This document shows positions 6,848 through 60,376 of a stretch of DNA of 64,000 bases, piece by piece. Source of the DNA: a virus; the IMG/VR virus record IMGVR_UViG_3300042691_032685, positions 1 to 64,000 of that record; one strand, given 5' to 3'. The notes below the pieces were generated by a model. It saw only the letters and a list, made by a program, of their open reading frames with translations. It was not told where the DNA came from and made no database searches. A program made the position numbers and the translations under genes. Numbering within the stretch: the stretch's first letter is position 1; each line of letters opens with the position of its first letter.

Positions 6848-7009
6848 TTACAGATCTATCCGAGTATACGAAATTTCTTTCTTTTGTAAATCGGTTTCGT
6901 AATCGTCGGCCTCAATGGTTTCTACATCCTCGAACGCAAGGTCCTTAAAACAACCAGTGCGACAGTCATCATCAAAATCAAAATAGAATCTCGTTAAGTT
7001 TGATCCCAT
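6848..7009 (-). CDS. Acidic small protein downstream of hli (53 aa)
   Basis: Begins MGSNLTRFYFDFDDDCRTG and is strongly acidic with two cysteines. It overlaps the end of the hli gene by 32 bases and ends eight bases before the oxygenase start, so it belongs to the same transcript. Family not recognised; the coupling argues for a real gene. Confidence 0.5.
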   Translation of the reverse strand: MGSNLTRFYFDFDDDCRTGCFKDLAFEDVETIEADDYETDLQKKEISYTRIDL

Positions 7010-7220
7010 GGGTTGCGCACCAAATAAGAAGAAAAGTCAGTGTCAGCATGGCAAGACGGCCATTGACGCGTTCGGCGTACCAGAGGTGATCATCAAAGTT
7101 AGTGTGCCACTTCCAGAAGCGGAGATCAGGTGACATCTCCAGGACCCACTCCCAAAAGGCAGGAAGCAGCCACCCAAGACAAGAAACGTAGCCTTGGATG
7201 CTGAGAAAAAATTTATTCAT
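6978..7220 (-). CDS. hli: High-light-inducible protein (chlorophyll a/b-binding-like)
   Basis: An 80-residue protein with the signature A49-E50-R51-x-N53-G54-R55-x-A57-M58 at the start of its C-terminal transmembrane helix (to about residue 70). The E and N/R residues of this motif bind chlorophyll in HLIPs. Cyanophages carry hli genes to protect photosystem assembly and photochemistry during infection. The N-terminal 40 residues are longer than in the shortest HLIPs and include a second hydrophobic stretch (LGWLLPAFWEWV). Its ATG overlaps the stop of a membrane microprotein gene. Confidence 0.93.
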   Translation of the reverse strand: MNKFFLSIQGYVSCLGWLLPAFWEWVLEMSPDLRFWKWHTNFDDHLWYAERVNGRLAMLTLTFLLIWCATHGIKLNEILF

Positions 7221-7371: not shown

Positions 7372-8226
7372 ATGGTTGCTAAACTGAATACATCAGATCC
7401 TTGGATTCAAGCCAAGGAAGAGCAACCAGAGATGATGCGGTCGCTAAACAAGACCGCAGCCAGAATTACGCTTAACGGAAAACGTCACTATACAACTCCG
7501 TTACCTACTGGGCCTGCGCCGTCCGTAACTACAATCATTAGCGAAACAGCTTCCGAAGCAAACAAACGGAAGCTCGAAATGTGGTCGAAAGCAAATCCAG
7601 GCGTCAAAGAACAAGCGGCTGAACGAGGCACTGCCATTCACTATGGTATGGAGCAGTACCTCAAAGGGAATAAAAATCCGGAAATCAAAGATGAATATGC
7701 AGACTTTTGGGCAGGCATGCCACCAATCCTGGATCAATTTCAGGAGGTGCTGTGGGCCGAGTCGCCAGTGCTTGATAAGTTTGACTTTACTATTGGTGCT
7801 GATGACGTTGCACGCGTCTGGGGTTGTGACAGCGAAGGCCGTGCTTGGGCTGGCGCTCCTGATATTATTGCTGTCGCCAACAACAAACTGACGCTTGCTG
7901 ACTTAAAGACCAGCGTCAAACCATACAGCCGTAAGTGGCCAAAAGATTTGGAGAAGGGGTCCCAGGAGTGGAGGGATCTTCTCGGTGGTCACATGAAATT
8001 CAAGAAGACCTGCAAACAGCTTGCGGCTTATGACATTGCCATTGAGCAAACTCTTGGCATGACTGTACAGCAAGCAGCAATCTTGGTTTCGACGCCTGTG
8101 CGTACTCAAATATTTAAAATCTCCCGAAGATTTTTAGATTCTCTTCGGGAGGATTGGTTGAAGATTGTAGAGGAGTATTACACGCAGATTGAGAACTGCA
8201 ATGCCTACGATCCTGACCTTATCTAA
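7372..8226 (+). CDS. PD-(D/E)XK exonuclease (RecB/Cas4-like)
   Basis: A 284-residue nuclease with the RecB-type order: RGTAIH near residues 85-90, E130, P163-D164 and D177-L-K179. Related cyanophage proteins act as exonucleases in recombination and host DNA breakdown. The start at 7372 follows a 50-base divergent promoter region shared with the hli operon. It stands alone on the plus strand and ends four bases into the convergent proline-rich gene. Confidence 0.8.
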   Translation: MVAKLNTSDPWIQAKEEQPEMMRSLNKTAARITLNGKRHYTTPLPTGPAPSVTTIISETASEANKRKLEMWSKANPGVKEQAAERGTAIHYGMEQYLKGNKNPEIKDEYADFWAGMPPILDQFQEVLWAESPVLDKFDFTIGADDVARVWGCDSEGRAWAGAPDIIAVANNKLTLADLKTSVKPYSRKWPKDLEKGSQEWRDLLGGHMKFKKTCKQLAAYDIAIEQTLGMTVQQAAILVSTPVRTQIFKISRRFLDSLREDWLKIVEEYYTQIENCNAYDPDLI

Positions 8227-8930
8227 AAATTAAAGATCGAAGGATTCAACGACGTACGTGTTGGAAACTTATCAATAATTGCTTTAGGTGTAGTCATTGG
8301 AGGCACATAGCCAGGAGGCTTCTGTCCTGGAGCAACGCCGCCACCAATTCCAGGCATCGTTCCGCCAACCGCAGAAGAAGCGGGGAAACTAGGGACTGGT
8401 GATCCAATGGGACGAGTTGGTGCTGGGAATCCAGCGGTTGGAGAACCGATTGGAGAAGAGGGAGGGAATGCTGGGGTTGGTGATCCAATAGGACGAGTCG
8501 GCGCAGGGAAAGCTGGAGTAGGTGAACCAATCGGACGTGTTGGTGCTGGGAAGCCAGAAGTGGGAGAACCGATTGGAGAGGAAGGTGGGAAACTAGGAGT
8601 TGGAGAGCCGATAGGACGAGTTGGTGCGGGGAACCCAGCAGTAGGCGACCCAATCGGAGAAGATGGTGGCATTGCTGGAGTAGGCGAACCCACTGGACGC
8701 GTCGGCGCAGGAGCAGGGGCTGGTCGTCCTGCAACAGGAGTTGGACGTGCAGCTGGAGCTGGTGCTGCCTTCGATGCGGCTTTGCTAGCTTGAAGATTAT
8801 TTAAAACAGATTTATAAGTATCTAAAGCAAAATTAGGAGTGTTTGCTCTTGCTGCAGGTGCGGGTGCGGGTGCAGAAGGTTTCTTTGCTGCAGGCGCAGG
8901 AGCTGCAGGTTTTTTGGGTGCCGCTGGCAT
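8223..8930 (-). CDS. Proline/alanine-rich repeat protein (235 aa)
   Basis: The N-terminus is Ala/Pro/Lys-rich, a short ordered segment NFALDTYKSVLNNLQASK follows, and then about ten copies of a 12-14 residue repeat of type PIGSPTPxFPAPTR. The C-terminus is glycine-rich. Low complexity suggests a flexible virion or fibre linker; no enzyme features. The start MPAAPKKP at 8930 is chosen because a TATAAT box lies 23 bases upstream and the longer frame would run into the divergent gene. Confidence 0.7.
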   Translation of the reverse strand: MPAAPKKPAAPAPAAKKPSAPAPAPAARANTPNFALDTYKSVLNNLQASKAASKAAPAPAARPTPVAGRPAPAPAPTRPVGSPTPAMPPSSPIGSPTAGFPAPTRPIGSPTPSFPPSSPIGSPTSGFPAPTRPIGSPTPAFPAPTRPIGSPTPAFPPSSPIGSPTAGFPAPTRPIGSPVPSFPASSAVGGTMPGIGGGVAPGQKPPGYVPPMTTPKAIIDKFPTRTSLNPSIFNF

Positions 8931-8952
8931 AATAAATATATTACTTTTGTTA

Positions 8953-8958
8953 ATTATA
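8953..8958 (-). promoter_or_regulatory. TATAAT box, leftward (late-type)
   Basis: TATAAT on the minus strand 23 bases before the start at 8930. Confidence 0.45.
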
Positions 8959-8963
8959 AGTCC

Positions 8964-9275
8964 ATGATTAATACTCTTTTTGCGCAGATAATTCAAGAAA
9001 TTATTAGGTGGTGGAATCGTGTTTGGTTTGAAGCCAAGCTAAAGGCCAGGCTTGATATGATCGAATTTGATAATCGGATCCAAGCTGAGTTAGAACGGGA
9101 ACAACAAAACAAACCGATCTACCGCGAATATCCAATCGACCCTGTGCTCCAAACCGGTGAATCACAAAAGCTAGGTGGGGCAATGGAACTACGCGCACCT
9201 TGGTACACTGATGGCTTACAACCCGAACGGCAAGATGGAGTGCAGGAAGCGCCTGGCATGGACGATCGCCTGTGA
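8964..9275 (+). CDS. Hypothetical protein with amphipathic N-terminus (103 aa)
   Basis: Begins with a Trp-rich amphipathic helix (IIQEIIRWWNRVWFEAKLKA), then a charged helix and a disordered Pro/Gln-rich tail. This could be a membrane-contacting peptide. It overlaps the next gene by 65 bases in another frame. No family recognised. Confidence 0.5.
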   Translation: MINTLFAQIIQEIIRWWNRVWFEAKLKARLDMIEFDNRIQAELEREQQNKPIYREYPIDPVLQTGESQKLGGAMELRAPWYTDGLQPERQDGVQEAPGMDDRL

Positions 9276-9657: not shown

Positions 9658-12290
9658 CGCAAAATCAATACGCCTTAAAACCTGGTGAAATCCGTCTTGA
9701 CCTCATTCCGCTGGATTGGCCACTCACACCGCTTGGGCCTAGGAAAGATCCATACCTCTCCGGTTGGCAAAACAAACCCCTTAGCGTTCAAGACATTGAA
9801 CAAGAACTCGTCTCTGGTGATTGCAAAGCTGTTGGTCTACTCGGTGGGCCTGTCTACAATCATCCTTATGGTTTGGTGTGGGTTGACGTTGATGGACCAA
9901 GCGTATACCCACTTGTGGAAGAAATCTCAGGTCTTCCGTTCAACAATGCTCTTCCTCCAACACTGACGATTCTCAGTGGAAAAATCGGACGTGAACGAAA
10001 GCTTTACCGTTTAAACCGAGATAAACACAAGCATTTCCTGCGTAACAAATACACCTGGCACGGGGAAGAAAATAAAGAGAAACTTGAGATCCTCTGGAAG
10101 CGTCACCAAGGCGTGCTAATGGGGTTGCATCCAGAAACAGATGGATACTTCACCGACGAAAATCAAGGGTTTGAATGGGTTGACAAACTACCTGAATTCC
10201 CTGATTGGCTGCTGAATGCAATCATCAATAAAAATGTCAAGCAAGGGAAGCCGGCCCGTGAAGTAACACGGATGGTTACACCAACATCTGTTGTTCAAAC
10301 CGTTATTGAGCTGGATCGCGACATCCAGGTAGCCAAAGAGGCTATGTGGGGTATGCCTCCAGAAGCCTGTGATGACTACGACATCTGGATCACAGTTGGT
10401 CAGTCGCTTCATTCACTGGATGAAAGCCTGTTGGATGAGTGGGATAACTGGTCTCGGCAATCAGATAAGTATCAAGAAGGTGAGTGTCATCGGCGCTGGC
10501 TTTCCTTTAGTCGTGGTGGTGGACGAACTCTTGGTTCTTTGATTCATGTTGCTCAGGAGAATGGGTGGCAGCAATCAAAAGATCACCTGGCAATGAATGT
10601 TGATGACGCAACGCTGGAGCACGTTGCTGAACTGGCAAAACAAATTGACGAAGATTTAAAACAAATGGCGCTTTCTCAGAAAACATTTGATCAAAACACT
10701 GTTGATAGCTGGAATACAAAGAGCCGTACGCTGGAGCAGCGCACGAGTAAAAAGCAAGAACAAGAAAAAAAGGAAAGGATTTCATCTGACCTGGTATCGG
10801 ATAAAGTGTTTGCCATGTATACCGGCAATCTCCGGTACAGTCAACCCCATGGTCAGTTCTTCTTATATAACTACCGCAAAGGACTTTGGGAGCCTCTGAC
10901 CAAGATTGAAATGCTTGGTGACATCAGGGAAAAACTTAAAGTCCTTGTGGAAACAGAAGAAAACTTTAAGGGTTTCAGCACAAACCTAATGAATGATGTA
11001 TATGCTCAACTGCAATCCATCATTCCTTTTGATGAATGGTACGACGGTTCGGACTACCTTCTCTTCACAAACGGTGTCTTGGATGTGGGTACCAGGCAGC
11101 TACTGCCTTTTGATAAAAATCTGTACCTTATTCAGCAGATGCCCTATGAATACGATCCGTCTGCTACATGTGAAGACATCATTAAATGGCTGAAACATAC
11201 GCAACACGACAGCTGGCATCGTGCTCAAGTTCTTCGTGCGTGGCTGCGGGCAACACTGCTTGGACGCTATGAAATCCAAAAGTTTGTTGAGATTGTGGGT
11301 CCTGGTAAATCGGGCAAATCCACCTATGCAAACCTCGCAGTAGCACTGGTTGGTAAACAAAATACTTACTCAACGGACTTTGAAAACCTGGAGAAAAACC
11401 GCTTTGAAGCAGCAAGCTATATGGGTAAAAAGCTTCTGCTGTTCCAAGATGCAGACCGCTGGGGTGGTTCCGTTTCCAAACTAAAAGCCATCACCGGTAA
11501 CGACTGGATCCGTTCGGAACGCAAGTACCAAAGCGAAAGTCAAGATCCATTCCAGTACCACGGGATGGTGATGATCACAGCCAATGAAGCAATTCAGTCC
11601 ACTGATTACACTTCTGGTCTCGCTCGCCGTCGTCTCACTATTCCGTTTGATCGTCCATTTACTGGAGGGCAAGCCGAACAAAAAGAACTCATTAAATTTG
11701 ACTCCAAGGGGAATCCAGAGGGTGTCTTTGCTCCCTTGCTGCCAGGTCTTGTGAACTGGCTTCTGGATATGCAAGAGGAGGATATGCGTTCCTACCTCAT
11801 GGAAACCGGCAAAAACGTCAGCTTCTTTCAGAAGTACGAGAAGACGCAAAGTCTGCGTTCCAACCCGCTGCTTGATTGGATGGATCACAAGGTTGTCTTT
11901 GATCCGGACATCTCGACACCGGTTGGTTTCTGTAAGATCCAGGCCGGTGGTGGATCTGGTTACTACACCAACTGGAACAAATGGCTGTACGCAAGCTATG
12001 CAGAATTCTGCCGTAGCTGTAACGTTGGCATCATGTCACGTGGTCGTTTTGAACCACTCTTCCTTGACATCTGCCGTCACCAGCTGAAGATCAATGTCTA
12101 CGGCACCAAAAACAGCAAGGGTCTCCGCATCATCAATGCTGCCGTACGTGAATCCAATGAGACCAAGTACGACGGCTATCCGTCCATCGTTGAAGTCGCC
12201 GCAAATCCTGAAAAATACAAGGAGTTCTACGGAACCGTGCTAACAACAACTACGGATGAGATAATGGATGAAAACGCACCAGACATGTGA
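9654..12290 (+). CDS. Prim-pol / PriCT-2 / D5-type SF3 primase-helicase
   Basis: An 878-residue replication protein. Residues about 15-200 form a prim-pol-like domain (WPLTPLGPRKDPYLSGWQ; VWVDVDG with the acidic pair). About 225-305 is a PriCT-2 domain with DYDIWITVGQSLH and the conserved Trp/Phe pattern. The C-terminal half is a D5/SF3 helicase with Walker A GPGKSGKST near 549-557 and Walker B LLLFQDAD near 600. Such proteins make primers and unwind the fork on phage and plasmid genomes. It is joined by 4-base overlaps to genes on both sides. Confidence 0.92.
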   Translation: MTQNQYALKPGEIRLDLIPLDWPLTPLGPRKDPYLSGWQNKPLSVQDIEQELVSGDCKAVGLLGGPVYNHPYGLVWVDVDGPSVYPLVEEISGLPFNNALPPTLTILSGKIGRERKLYRLNRDKHKHFLRNKYTWHGEENKEKLEILWKRHQGVLMGLHPETDGYFTDENQGFEWVDKLPEFPDWLLNAIINKNVKQGKPAREVTRMVTPTSVVQTVIELDRDIQVAKEAMWGMPPEACDDYDIWITVGQSLHSLDESLLDEWDNWSRQSDKYQEGECHRRWLSFSRGGGRTLGSLIHVAQENGWQQSKDHLAMNVDDATLEHVAELAKQIDEDLKQMALSQKTFDQNTVDSWNTKSRTLEQRTSKKQEQEKKERISSDLVSDKVFAMYTGNLRYSQPHGQFFLYNYRKGLWEPLTKIEMLGDIREKLKVLVETEENFKGFSTNLMNDVYAQLQSIIPFDEWYDGSDYLLFTNGVLDVGTRQLLPFDKNLYLIQQMPYEYDPSATCEDIIKWLKHTQHDSWHRAQVLRAWLRATLLGRYEIQKFVEIVGPGKSGKSTYANLAVALVGKQNTYSTDFENLEKNRFEAASYMGKKLLLFQDADRWGGSVSKLKAITGNDWIRSERKYQSESQDPFQYHGMVMITANEAIQSTDYTSGLARRRLTIPFDRPFTGGQAEQKELIKFDSKGNPEGVFAPLLPGLVNWLLDMQEEDMRSYLMETGKNVSFFQKYEKTQSLRSNPLLDWMDHKVVFDPDISTPVGFCKIQAGGGSGYYTNWNKWLYASYAEFCRSCNVGIMSRGRFEPLFLDICRHQLKINVYGTKNSKGLRIINAAVRESNETKYDGYPSIVEVAANPEKYKEFYGTVLTTTTDEIMDENAPDM

Positions 12291-12646
12291 GTAACGGTCG
12301 CCATTTAATCTTGGATCTCTACGACTGCGATCCAGAGATCCTCGATGATTACAAGGAGCTTCAACGATTGCTTGAAGCTTCTCTTGTAATGGCTGGTGCA
12401 AACATCCTTCGGATTATTGGGGAAAAGTTTGAACCGCAAGGCGTTACCCTCTTGGCGCTTCTTGCTGAGTCGCATGCTTCCATTCATACGTGGCCGGAGA
12501 TGAAGTATGCAGCAATCGATCTCTACACCTGTGGTGACAAAACACAAACCCACAAAGCAGCTGAGTTTTTGAAAAGTAAACTCAAAGCGCAAAACATTGA
12601 TGAAAAGGAATTGGTAAGATCAGTTACTCCTTTAAATTGTGTATAG
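12287..12646 (+). CDS. speD: S-adenosylmethionine decarboxylase proenzyme
   Basis: A 119-residue SpeD of the short bacterial type. The self-cleavage site E61-S62 in LLAESHASIHTWPE yields the pyruvoyl group on Ser62; H68 and the later C82 (LYTCGDK) fit the processing and catalytic residues. The product, decarboxylated AdoMet, donates aminopropyl groups for spermidine. It starts with GTG overlapping the primase stop (GTGA). speD is a known cyanophage auxiliary gene, thought to support polyamine supply. Confidence 0.93.
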   Translation: MSNGRHLILDLYDCDPEILDDYKELQRLLEASLVMAGANILRIIGEKFEPQGVTLLALLAESHASIHTWPEMKYAAIDLYTCGDKTQTHKAAEFLKSKLKAQNIDEKELVRSVTPLNCV

Positions 12647-16010: not shown

Positions 16011-16060
16011 AGATCTAAAAACAACACTTACTTTTAGAATAAAAGAAACGGGAGATACCC

Positions 16061-26457: not shown

Positions 26458-26820
26458 GTGAATCAATCAACTGTCGTGATGCATTCCGCCGCAGGCTTTC
26501 TAGATAGCTTTGTTCAAGACGAACTGAAGTGCCGTTATCTTGATGAAGAAGATTTTGGTGCTCCTCTCGATAATGAAGAAAATGATGTACCCTTATATGA
26601 CATGTACAACAGAGGTTTAGTTGCATGCGAACAGGGACTCGAAAGGAATCCGTTGAATCTCGAGGGAGCACGGCCTGGAATGACGGGTTACATTCCGTCG
26701 ATGGAACAGGGCTTAGCAATGGGAGCATCACCAAAACCCCGGACCCTGGTTTTGGAACTGGAGGAGCCGGAGGAAAAGGAACGGACGCTGTCGGCAAAAC
26801 GACGTGGTTTACTCCGGTAG
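26458..26820 (+). CDS. Hypothetical acidic protein (up to 120 aa)
   Basis: Acidic N-terminal region (FLDSFVQDELKCRYLDEEDF) and a less regular C-terminus. The frame opens with GTG at 26458; an ATG follows at 26479. Its last 196 bases overlap the DUF3310 gene in another frame, which is unusually long, so one N- or C-terminus may be mis-set or joined by frameshifting. Confidence 0.45.
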   Translation: MNQSTVVMHSAAGFLDSFVQDELKCRYLDEEDFGAPLDNEENDVPLYDMYNRGLVACEQGLERNPLNLEGARPGMTGYIPSMEQGLAMGASPKPRTLVLELEEPEEKERTLSAKRRGLLR

Positions 26821-27152
26821 AAGACATAATTCCTAGTCTTCTTGAGGAAAACACATTGCAGTTAAGTGAGTGTCCAGGTGGTGTGTGCCCAGTTCCCTGG
26901 GCCACCAAAGAAGAAACTCCTGTGGTCCAAGAAGATACAGTTAATCATCCATCTCATTACACAGATGGTGGTATTGAATGTATCGAGGCTATTGAAGCAG
27001 CTTTAACCAACGAAGAGTTTCGTGGTTATTGCAAAGGAAACTGCATCAAATATATTTGGCGTGAAAAACTGAAAGGCGGTACGGAGTCACTGAAAAAAGC
27101 GCAGTGGTACTTGGATCGCCTTATCCAACTAGACGAAGCTCAAAAGGGCTGA
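26625..27152 (+). CDS. DUF3310 (phage nucleotide-kinase-like) protein
   Basis: The C-terminal about 65 residues are DUF3310: VNHPSHYTDGGIECIEAIEA, CKGNCIKYIWREKLKGG and LKKAQWYLDRLI. The domain is widespread in phages and is sometimes labelled nucleotide kinase without proof. The first 100 residues are low complexity and may not all be translated, since 196 bases overlap the upstream gene. It ends 13 bases into the convergent NblA-like gene. Confidence 0.75.
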   Translation: MRTGTRKESVESRGSTAWNDGLHSVDGTGLSNGSITKTPDPGFGTGGAGGKGTDAVGKTTWFTPVEDIIPSLLEENTLQLSECPGGVCPVPWATKEETPVVQEDTVNHPSHYTDGGIECIEAIEAALTNEEFRGYCKGNCIKYIWREKLKGGTESLKKAQWYLDRLIQLDEAQKG

Positions 27153-27430
27153 AGATCGTCTTCGTCCTCGTCCTCGTCGTCGTATGTACATGCGGCGGCG
27201 AGTTCTGCTAGCTCAAGATCCGTAGGGAAATCAAAGTCAATAGAAACGTTCTCGTCTTCCATCAAGGATTTGATTGCGTACCATTCCATAAGTCGCTGGT
27301 GGTACAGATTCAGCAAAGCGTAATACAGCTCATCCCACGTCATCTCTTGCGCCGTGAGTTCTGCTTTACGCATCGAGAATTGCAGCTCAAGAGGAAGCTC
27401 GAACTCCCGTGGTTCAACAGACCGTTCCAT
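27140..27430 (-). CDS. nblA: NblA-like phycobilisome-degradation adaptor with acidic tail
   Basis: Residues about 10-60 follow the NblA pattern: FELPLELQFSMRKAELTAQE, a central helix MTWDELYYALLNLYHQRLM, then EWYAIKSLM. NblA dimers bind phycobiliproteins and bring them to Clp protease, so the antenna is dismantled. Canonical NblA is about 60 residues; this one adds a C-terminal extension ending in a run of Asp/Glu. An ATG start at 27430 is preferred to an upstream GTG. Phage nblA genes are known from cyanophages such as Ma-LMM01. Identification is by pattern and should be tested by profile search. Confidence 0.72.
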   Translation of the reverse strand: MERSVEPREFELPLELQFSMRKAELTAQEMTWDELYYALLNLYHQRLMEWYAIKSLMEDENVSIDFDFPTDLELAELAAACTYDDEDEDEDDLQPF

Positions 27431-27460
27431 TCCGCTTTGCACGTTTTCAATGCAATTATT

Positions 27461-28135
27461 CTAATCGTAGCCGTCAAATGTCATAATGCGTGCATCTGCT
27501 TCCATGAGATCAAAGTCCATCCAAGGGTTTTCATCGATTCGGAAGTTGTTGGCAAACTCGGAAAGGATGTAAGGACTGATGCGTTCTTCCAGTGAACGGA
27601 TAGCACGGACTTCGTGGGGAGCGGCTGTGTAATTACGGAACGCTGTCAACAAGATCTCAGTTGAGGCCCAAGGATTAGCGTCAACTTCCTGGAGGAAAAG
27701 ATTCATTTCTTCTCGCCGTCTATCCAGGAGGCCGCCAACAACCTTATGGTCTTGGTCAAAGATCCAACGACCCATTTCTTCGGTGGCACCAGAGAAATTT
27801 TCAACCTCTAGGTAGTCAATGACGCGACTATAGAGGAATGGCTCCCAGCCGATGGAATGGATGAAAGACACAAGTGCCTGGCGCATGCTGTCATCGAGTC
27901 CCAGGTTCAAGCGAAGCAACTGAACTTCGATGACGTTGACCTCATGGAAGAGGTACTCTAAAGCCTTCTCCTGGCTGCAACGCTGGCCTTTCTTGACGGG
28001 TGAGCCATCGGGGTAGAACTGTGTCCCAAACCCGATGGTATAGGGCTCTGCACCTGTGTGCGGATCTGGGTACGCCTTCTCGTTAAACCCTTCGTATTTA
28101 CGAATGAGATTAACAGCACGCGAAAGATCCGACAT
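27461..28135 (-). CDS. GH24 (T4-type) lysozyme
   Basis: The N-terminal catalytic region has E15 (RKYEGF), D24 (AYPDPHTG) and T33 (YTIGFGT), the E-8-D-x-T triad of phage lysozymes. Residues about 45-150 complete the helical domain. The C-terminal 70 residues are extra and of unknown role. Hydrolyses the MurNAc-GlcNAc bond. With the 16389-17399 endolysin this gives the phage two separate lysis enzymes. Confidence 0.85.
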   Translation of the reverse strand: MSDLSRAVNLIRKYEGFNEKAYPDPHTGAEPYTIGFGTQFYPDGSPVKKGQRCSQEKALEYLFHEVNVIEVQLLRLNLGLDDSMRQALVSFIHSIGWEPFLYSRVIDYLEVENFSGATEEMGRWIFDQDHKVVGGLLDRRREEMNLFLQEVDANPWASTEILLTAFRNYTAAPHEVRAIRSLEERISPYILSEFANNFRIDENPWMDFDLMEADARIMTFDGYD

Positions 28136-59905: not shown

Positions 59906-59967
59906 AACCCTTCCATCTAGTACGTATGTACTACGACGGTGGGTTTTCTGCAGGACTCAACATCCTG
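59906..59967 (+). other. Intercistronic hairpins
   Basis: AACCC/GGGTT encloses TAGTAC-gtat-GTACTA (59918-59933), followed by TTTT and then CAGGA-ctcaaca-TCCTG (59951-59967). The first resembles a weak terminator; the second recurs at 60412. Confidence 0.55.
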
Positions 59968-59992
59968 TACATCAATTCAACTCAGCTCAACC

Positions 59993-60376
59993 ATGTTCTC
60001 TAACACCATCATTGGCAACGTTACTTACATGGAAATTGCGACCCATGAGGGTCGTGAATTCCTTGCAATTACAGTTGCAGTCAATGATACCTACGACAGA
60101 TCCTGTCGGATTAAATTTAACAATTCCAATGGATTGTTAACTGCCTATCGCAACGGTACGTTTGTGATAGGACAACAACTTATCCTCAGTCAATATGACG
60201 TACGAATCTCTAGCATCCGTACGCATTACACCAAGGACAATCAACTCCTTCCACTCAAGTATCCTGAGATTGCACTGACGAATGTCCGAGCAACCATCGG
60301 TTCTTCACCTAAGCCCAAAGCTTTGGTGGAATCCAGGGCACAAGTGGAACCTACCCTGGAAGAAATTCCTTTCTGA
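59993..60376 (+). CDS. SSB-like OB-fold protein (127 aa)
   Basis: The order of strands (FSNTIIGNVTYMEI, GREFLAITVAVND, VIGQQLILSQYDVRI, then EIALTNVRAT) recalls a single-stranded-DNA-binding OB fold, and the final residues LEEIPF resemble the SSB acidic tip DDDIPF that recruits partners. No Shine-Dalgarno; the ATG follows CAACTCAGCTCAACC. A replication role fits. Sequence identity to known SSBs is low, so a profile search is needed. Confidence 0.6.
   Translation: MFSNTIIGNVTYMEIATHEGREFLAITVAVNDTYDRSCRIKFNNSNGLLTAYRNGTFVIGQQLILSQYDVRISSIRTHYTKDNQLLPLKYPEIALTNVRATIGSSPKPKALVESRAQVEPTLEEIPF

Follow-up and report, generated by a model that had tools for sequence, protein, structure and literature searches.

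An NblA homologue with an acidic tail, usually ending in Pro-Phe, in S-EIV1-like cyanophages

What does a short reverse-strand gene of an S-EIV1-like phage encode, and what might the strongly acidic end of its product be for? We examined this gene in the window, that is, the whole 64,000-nucleotide stretch of DNA analysed here, which is part of a 69,529-base IMG/VR virus record (Table 1). The open reading frame is a real gene, beyond chance: it has more than 500 relatives in IMG/VR among the matches listed, and the pN/pS of its core is 0.18. The ATG start (M5) is invariant across the 27-row family alignment; an alternative in-frame start, a GTG at 27442, would give a protein of 100 amino acids (27442..27140, reverse strand), and positions marked below as 100-aa numbering refer to this longer form. 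Among phage records, only that of Synechococcus phage S-EIV1 gave a good match. Its copy, annotated as "hypothetical protein", is 63% identical to the window protein, and the gene order is shared with the window, with the lysozyme gene upstream and a convergent gene downstream. The TTAGAATA motif in front of the gene is a possible phage promoter element, and the same motif also precedes ATGs near 16034 (forward strand) and 31980 (reverse strand).

Table 1. Features of the nblA-like locus and its immediate neighbours in the window.
Feature	Position	Strand	Basis
nblA-like coding sequence, 96 aa from ATG	27140..27430	-	ORF list
NblA-like core, residues 12-62	27257..27409	-	PF04485 match; hhalign, 57 columns; AlphaFold2
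Third predicted helix, residues 75-86, absent from cyanobacterial NblA	27185..27220	-	AlphaFold2, moderate confidence; alignment; NblA lengths 54-74 aa
Acidic run DDEDEDEDD, residues 88-96 (100-aa numbering), predicted disordered	27155..27181	-	Sequence; low pLDDT
C-terminal tip LQPF	27143..27154	-	34 of the 40 distinct relatives have a final PF
Phage lysozyme (endolysin), directly upstream of nblA-like gene	27461..28135	-	PF00959, 3e-19; S-EIV1 annotation
DUF3310 gene, convergent, overlaps nblA-like 3′ end by 13 nt	26625..27152	+	PF11753, 3e-20; overlap survey
TTAGAATA motif, possible -10-like promoter element	27457..27464	-	Present upstream of most relatives inspected

Relationship to NblA

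The initial annotation proposed an NblA-like protein, with a profile search as the check, and the profile comparisons bear this out: the protein is almost certainly homologous to NblA. PF04485 (NblA) is the best Pfam match of the window protein at 18.8 bits (E = 0.0023), which lies under the curated cut-off of 25 bits; one family member exceeds this cut-off, with 25.6 bits in the record search. The profile matches each of the 27 aligned family members with E < 0.05, the best E-value being 6.4e-6. DUF4030 and PHF12, which also gave weak Pfam matches, were rejected, as their best E-values were poorer and they matched fewer members than NblA did. In the reverse search, a profile built from the phage family alone was run against 194 cyanobacterial genomes (threshold E <= 0.01), and all 21 places that it hit are places where PF04485 finds NblA. 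A profile of 44 sequences from the phage family was also aligned, with hhalign, to a profile of 104 other NblAs; almost all of these are cyanobacterial, and the NblAs of phages Ma-LMM01 and PaV-LD are included. The alignment has a probability of 96% and an E-value of 4.8e-9 over 57 gapless columns; none of the 21 controls (one reversed profile and 20 with shuffled columns) exceeded a probability of 2.8%. The only PDB sequence match of the core profile is Anabaena NblA, 1ojh (E = 0.0011). PHROGs and NCBIfam gave neither NblA nor any other significant match for the protein, and a tblastn search of phages with an Anabaena NblA fragment found no match; the latter is a failure of sensitivity, because Ma-LMM01 and PaV-LD carry NblA by profile.

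In the full-length AlphaFold2 model, the core is a helix-loop-helix (predicted helices 18-33 and 36-63); a third helix follows it, and the end of the protein is disordered. Modeled as a separate construct, the core is predicted to be a helix-loop-helix monomer with a pLDDT of 86 and helices at 14-28 and 32-59. A homologous helix-loop-helix, aligned without gaps, is found in cyanobacterial NblA (Anabaena sp. PCC 7120, 1ojh), which is a dimer forming a four-helix bundle and a Clp adaptor (PMC7966870). Foldseek searches with the full and core models, the PDB included, returned no significant match and no NblA structure, a null result that we treat as uninformative for a short helical hairpin, the search having had no positive control.

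The window protein and Anabaena NblA have in common an N-terminal L-x-L-E-x-Q-F-x-x-R and a central L-Y-x-Q. The NblA spacing that had been claimed for the core holds for the ELxLExxFxxR motif (E15-L-P-L18-E19-L-Q21-F22-S-M-R25), for the central Leu-Tyr (L46-Y47), and for the third element (P73TDLELAELAAAC85; all in 100-aa numbering), but conservation is poorest at the end reported to bind phycobilisomes. In published accounts, ClpC contacts NblA close to the N-terminus, and phycobiliproteins contact it close to the C-terminus (PMC4103541; PMC7760959). The majority residues of the phage family and of NblA agree at 7 of the 10 Anabaena positions 7-16, at about 7 of the 27 positions 17-43, and at 2 of the 14 positions 44-57; thus, conservation is higher in the motif on the ClpC side than at the end facing the phycobilisome. 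In the N-terminal motif, the phage family keeps L, L, Q, F, and R, has E at the position of E10 in 63%, and has L or M in place of Q11. At L51 and K53 of Anabaena NblA, which we take to be the C-terminal residues reported to bind phycobilisomes, the family has I, L or M and A, E or Q, respectively; W56-G57 is likewise not kept, and the C-terminal end has turned acidic. The NblA of PaV-LD is also without W-G, so that phycobilisome binding may well persist despite divergence at the C-terminal end.

NblA is typically small, at about 60 aa, and without extension (54-74 aa among the other NblAs collected here), whereas the window protein has 96 amino acids, the additions being the third helix, the acidic run, and the PF tip. 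Similar to the window's phage, the freshwater phages Ma-LMM01 and PaV-LD carry NblA homologues that are matched by the same Pfam profile (52 and 45 bits), but these have only 65 and 54 amino acids, carry no tail, and are not matched by the S-EIV1-family profile. The marine phage S-SCSM1 likewise has an NblA (QFG06501.1), assigned by remote homology (PMC9602691); it is 54 amino acids long, without a tail, and is missed by PF04485, which does detect the S-EIV1 type. Other phage NblAs have been reported to cause pigment loss (PMC9602691).

The acidic tail and its tip

The D/E tail had been described in the initial annotation as absent from canonical NblA, and we agree: it is kept across the phage lineage and has no counterpart in the other NblAs examined, which have 54-74 amino acids. 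That description omitted the LQPF end following the acidic run. The window protein ends DDEDEDEDDLQPF, with acidic residues leading up to a C-terminal Pro-Phe. Counted from position 82 of the 96-aa form, the tail is 14-24 residues long in the phage lineage, and D and E make up 75% of it across relatives, not counting the last four residues. Those of the 40 distinct relatives that do not end in PF end in VF (two relatives, both SVF) or in FG (four, all from PFFG and belonging to one clade). PF is encoded by six synonymous codon pairs at a pS of about 0.7-0.8, near saturation, and therefore the PF residues are under selection. The overlap with the DUF3310 gene extends over 13 nt in the window's subgroup and over only 4 nt (the stop codon only) in other subgroups; PF as a by-product of this overlap was rejected, since PF is retained where the overlap is 4 nt. 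The initial annotation had supposed that the tail may change Clp delivery or phycobilisome contact; what is kept across the lineage, a D/E run plus usually a terminal Pro-Phe, suggests another kind of partner.

The tail resembles the C-terminal tip of single-stranded DNA-binding protein (SSB), which in bacteria (E. coli MDFDDDIPF) is a docking site for numerous proteins of DNA repair and replication (PMC7913777): both have a disordered acidic stretch, Pro-Phe, and a free C-terminus. Cyanobacterial SSB tips include EDEIPF and LDDIPF; in S-EIV1-like phages, the SSBs (PF00436) have DEPF, LEEAPF, LEEVPF, LDEIPF, DEPPF or KEPF at the end. Our scan of four phage genomes found a strongly acidic PF-type end on no open frame other than the nblA-like one. 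Unlike SSB, however, the nblA-like protein has no OB-fold (there is no Pfam SSB match, PF00436, and the helical core is NblA-like), and in contrast to the SSB tip, PF is mostly preceded by Q, S, A or T, apart from the relatives ending in SVF or PFFG. We looked in the PFFG clade for co-variation between this tip and that of the phage's own SSB and found none; the SSB there ends in KEPF, which argues against a strict equivalence of the tips.

A second SSB-tip-like end occurs in S-EIV1-like phages: a 145-aa protein at 59939..60376 (forward strand) ends in PTLEEIPF, and its homologues in related phages end in EEVPF, EEIPF, EEIAF or EPVAF. It has no Pfam, PHROG or PDB match. We rejected it as the phage SSB, since relatives carry a separate PF00436 SSB.

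Occurrence in S-EIV1-like phages and their hosts

Contigs were chosen by their terminase, which avoids selection by the nblA-like gene itself. The gene is present in 9 of the 11 contigs obtained in this way and in all seven of those of at least 64 kb; the two contigs that lack it are both about 39 kb long, and all nine copies end in PF. The gene therefore looks like a core gene of the S-EIV1-like lineage, a widespread lineage of cyanophages. Although phage NblA is already known, its core-gene status in S-EIV1-like phages and the tailed form appear to be new: a 2017 survey of the S-EIV1 group has hli and ptoX among its photosynthesis genes and not nblA (PMC5332604), and within our partial coverage of the viral NblA literature we found no publication crediting these phages with NblA.

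The host of the window's phage, and the presence of phycobilisomes in it, we infer from S-EIV1 alone. Of 61 genomes in one family of small cyanobacterial genomes, probably picocyanobacteria to judge from their size, only two gave a PF04485 match, and a weak one; a recognisable NblA may therefore be missing from such hosts. Among the other cyanobacteria sampled that have larger genomes, most have a clear NblA.

Possible function of the tailed NblA

We consider it probable that the protein is a phage NblA acting as an adaptor for phycobilisome degradation, with a docking tail specific to the lineage. By homology, the helix-loop-helix core would form the NblA dimer, and this dimer would link the host's phycobiliproteins with its ClpC chaperone. 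Breakdown of the antenna in the infected cell would then free amino acids and lower the absorption of excess light. What the S-EIV1-like phages have added to this core is the third helix, an acidic linker that is flexible, and in most cases the C-terminal Pro-Phe tip, through which the protein most likely docks on a partner. Since the tip has an SSB-like form, SSB-tail-binding pockets would be the first partner candidates. If the protein works as an NblA, antenna destruction would be a core strategy of the S-EIV1-like lineage, and a partner for the tail would give this NblA a second interaction of its own.

Other explanations differ from this one mainly in what the tail does. It may be a flexibly linked peptide that docks on an AAA+ protein, similar to the C-terminal tail of the SspB adaptor, which docks on ClpX, and may thereby strengthen the delivery of phycobilisomes to the protease, in line with the effect on Clp delivery raised in the initial annotation. 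A folded core, a disordered linker, and a conserved tip are indeed the layout of a tethering adaptor, and NblA is a Clp adaptor already; but cyanobacterial NblAs work without a tail, and the tip resembles no Clp-docking peptide known to us, so we regard this role as rather unlikely. The tail may instead have no specific partner and tune solubility or charge, PF having arisen by chance or from the overlapping DUF3310 gene. The acidic runs are simple in composition and variable in length, as such a role would allow, and in the subgroup of the window the DUF3310 gene ends antisense to the final codons of the nblA-like gene. The retention of PF through near-saturated synonymous divergence, and in the subgroups with the shorter overlap, argues against it, and we find this explanation quite improbable.

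A larger departure would be an adaptor that has kept the ClpC end of NblA and lost the phycobilisome end, its SSB-like tail bringing SSB-binding proteins to ClpC or, in a variant, simply occupying the SSB pockets of host proteins (RecO, RecQ, PriA, and RecJ are examples). Such a protein would act on host DNA metabolism instead of the antenna, and would link Clp proteolysis to the takeover of that metabolism, with repair and replication proteins recruited or blocked. The better conservation of the N-terminal motif than of the C-terminal end is what it would lead one to expect, as are the match of the acidic run and PF-COOH to cyanobacterial and own-phage SSB tips, the selection on PF, and the singular acidic PF-type frame in the four genomes scanned. 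We nevertheless hold this retargeting to be unlikely, given the PFFG and SVF ends, the missing co-variation with the KEPF-ending SSB, and the example of PaV-LD, in which the W-G pair is lacking as well.

The initial annotation had paired the protein with Hli as two light-harvesting effectors, with no psbA. The absence of psbA is supported, no match to PF00124 (psbA/psbD) being found in the 69.5 kb record, which may be incomplete. The Hli assignment is tentative: the product of 6978..7220 (reverse strand) contains an AERVNGRLAM motif and matches the Hli PHROG at E = 0.02, but gives no Pfam hit. In addition, we observed a SpeD-like S-adenosylmethionine decarboxylase at 12287..12646 (forward strand; PF02675, E = 2e-36) and, at 8223..8996 (reverse strand), a proline-rich repeat protein with units like PAPTRPIGSPTPAF.
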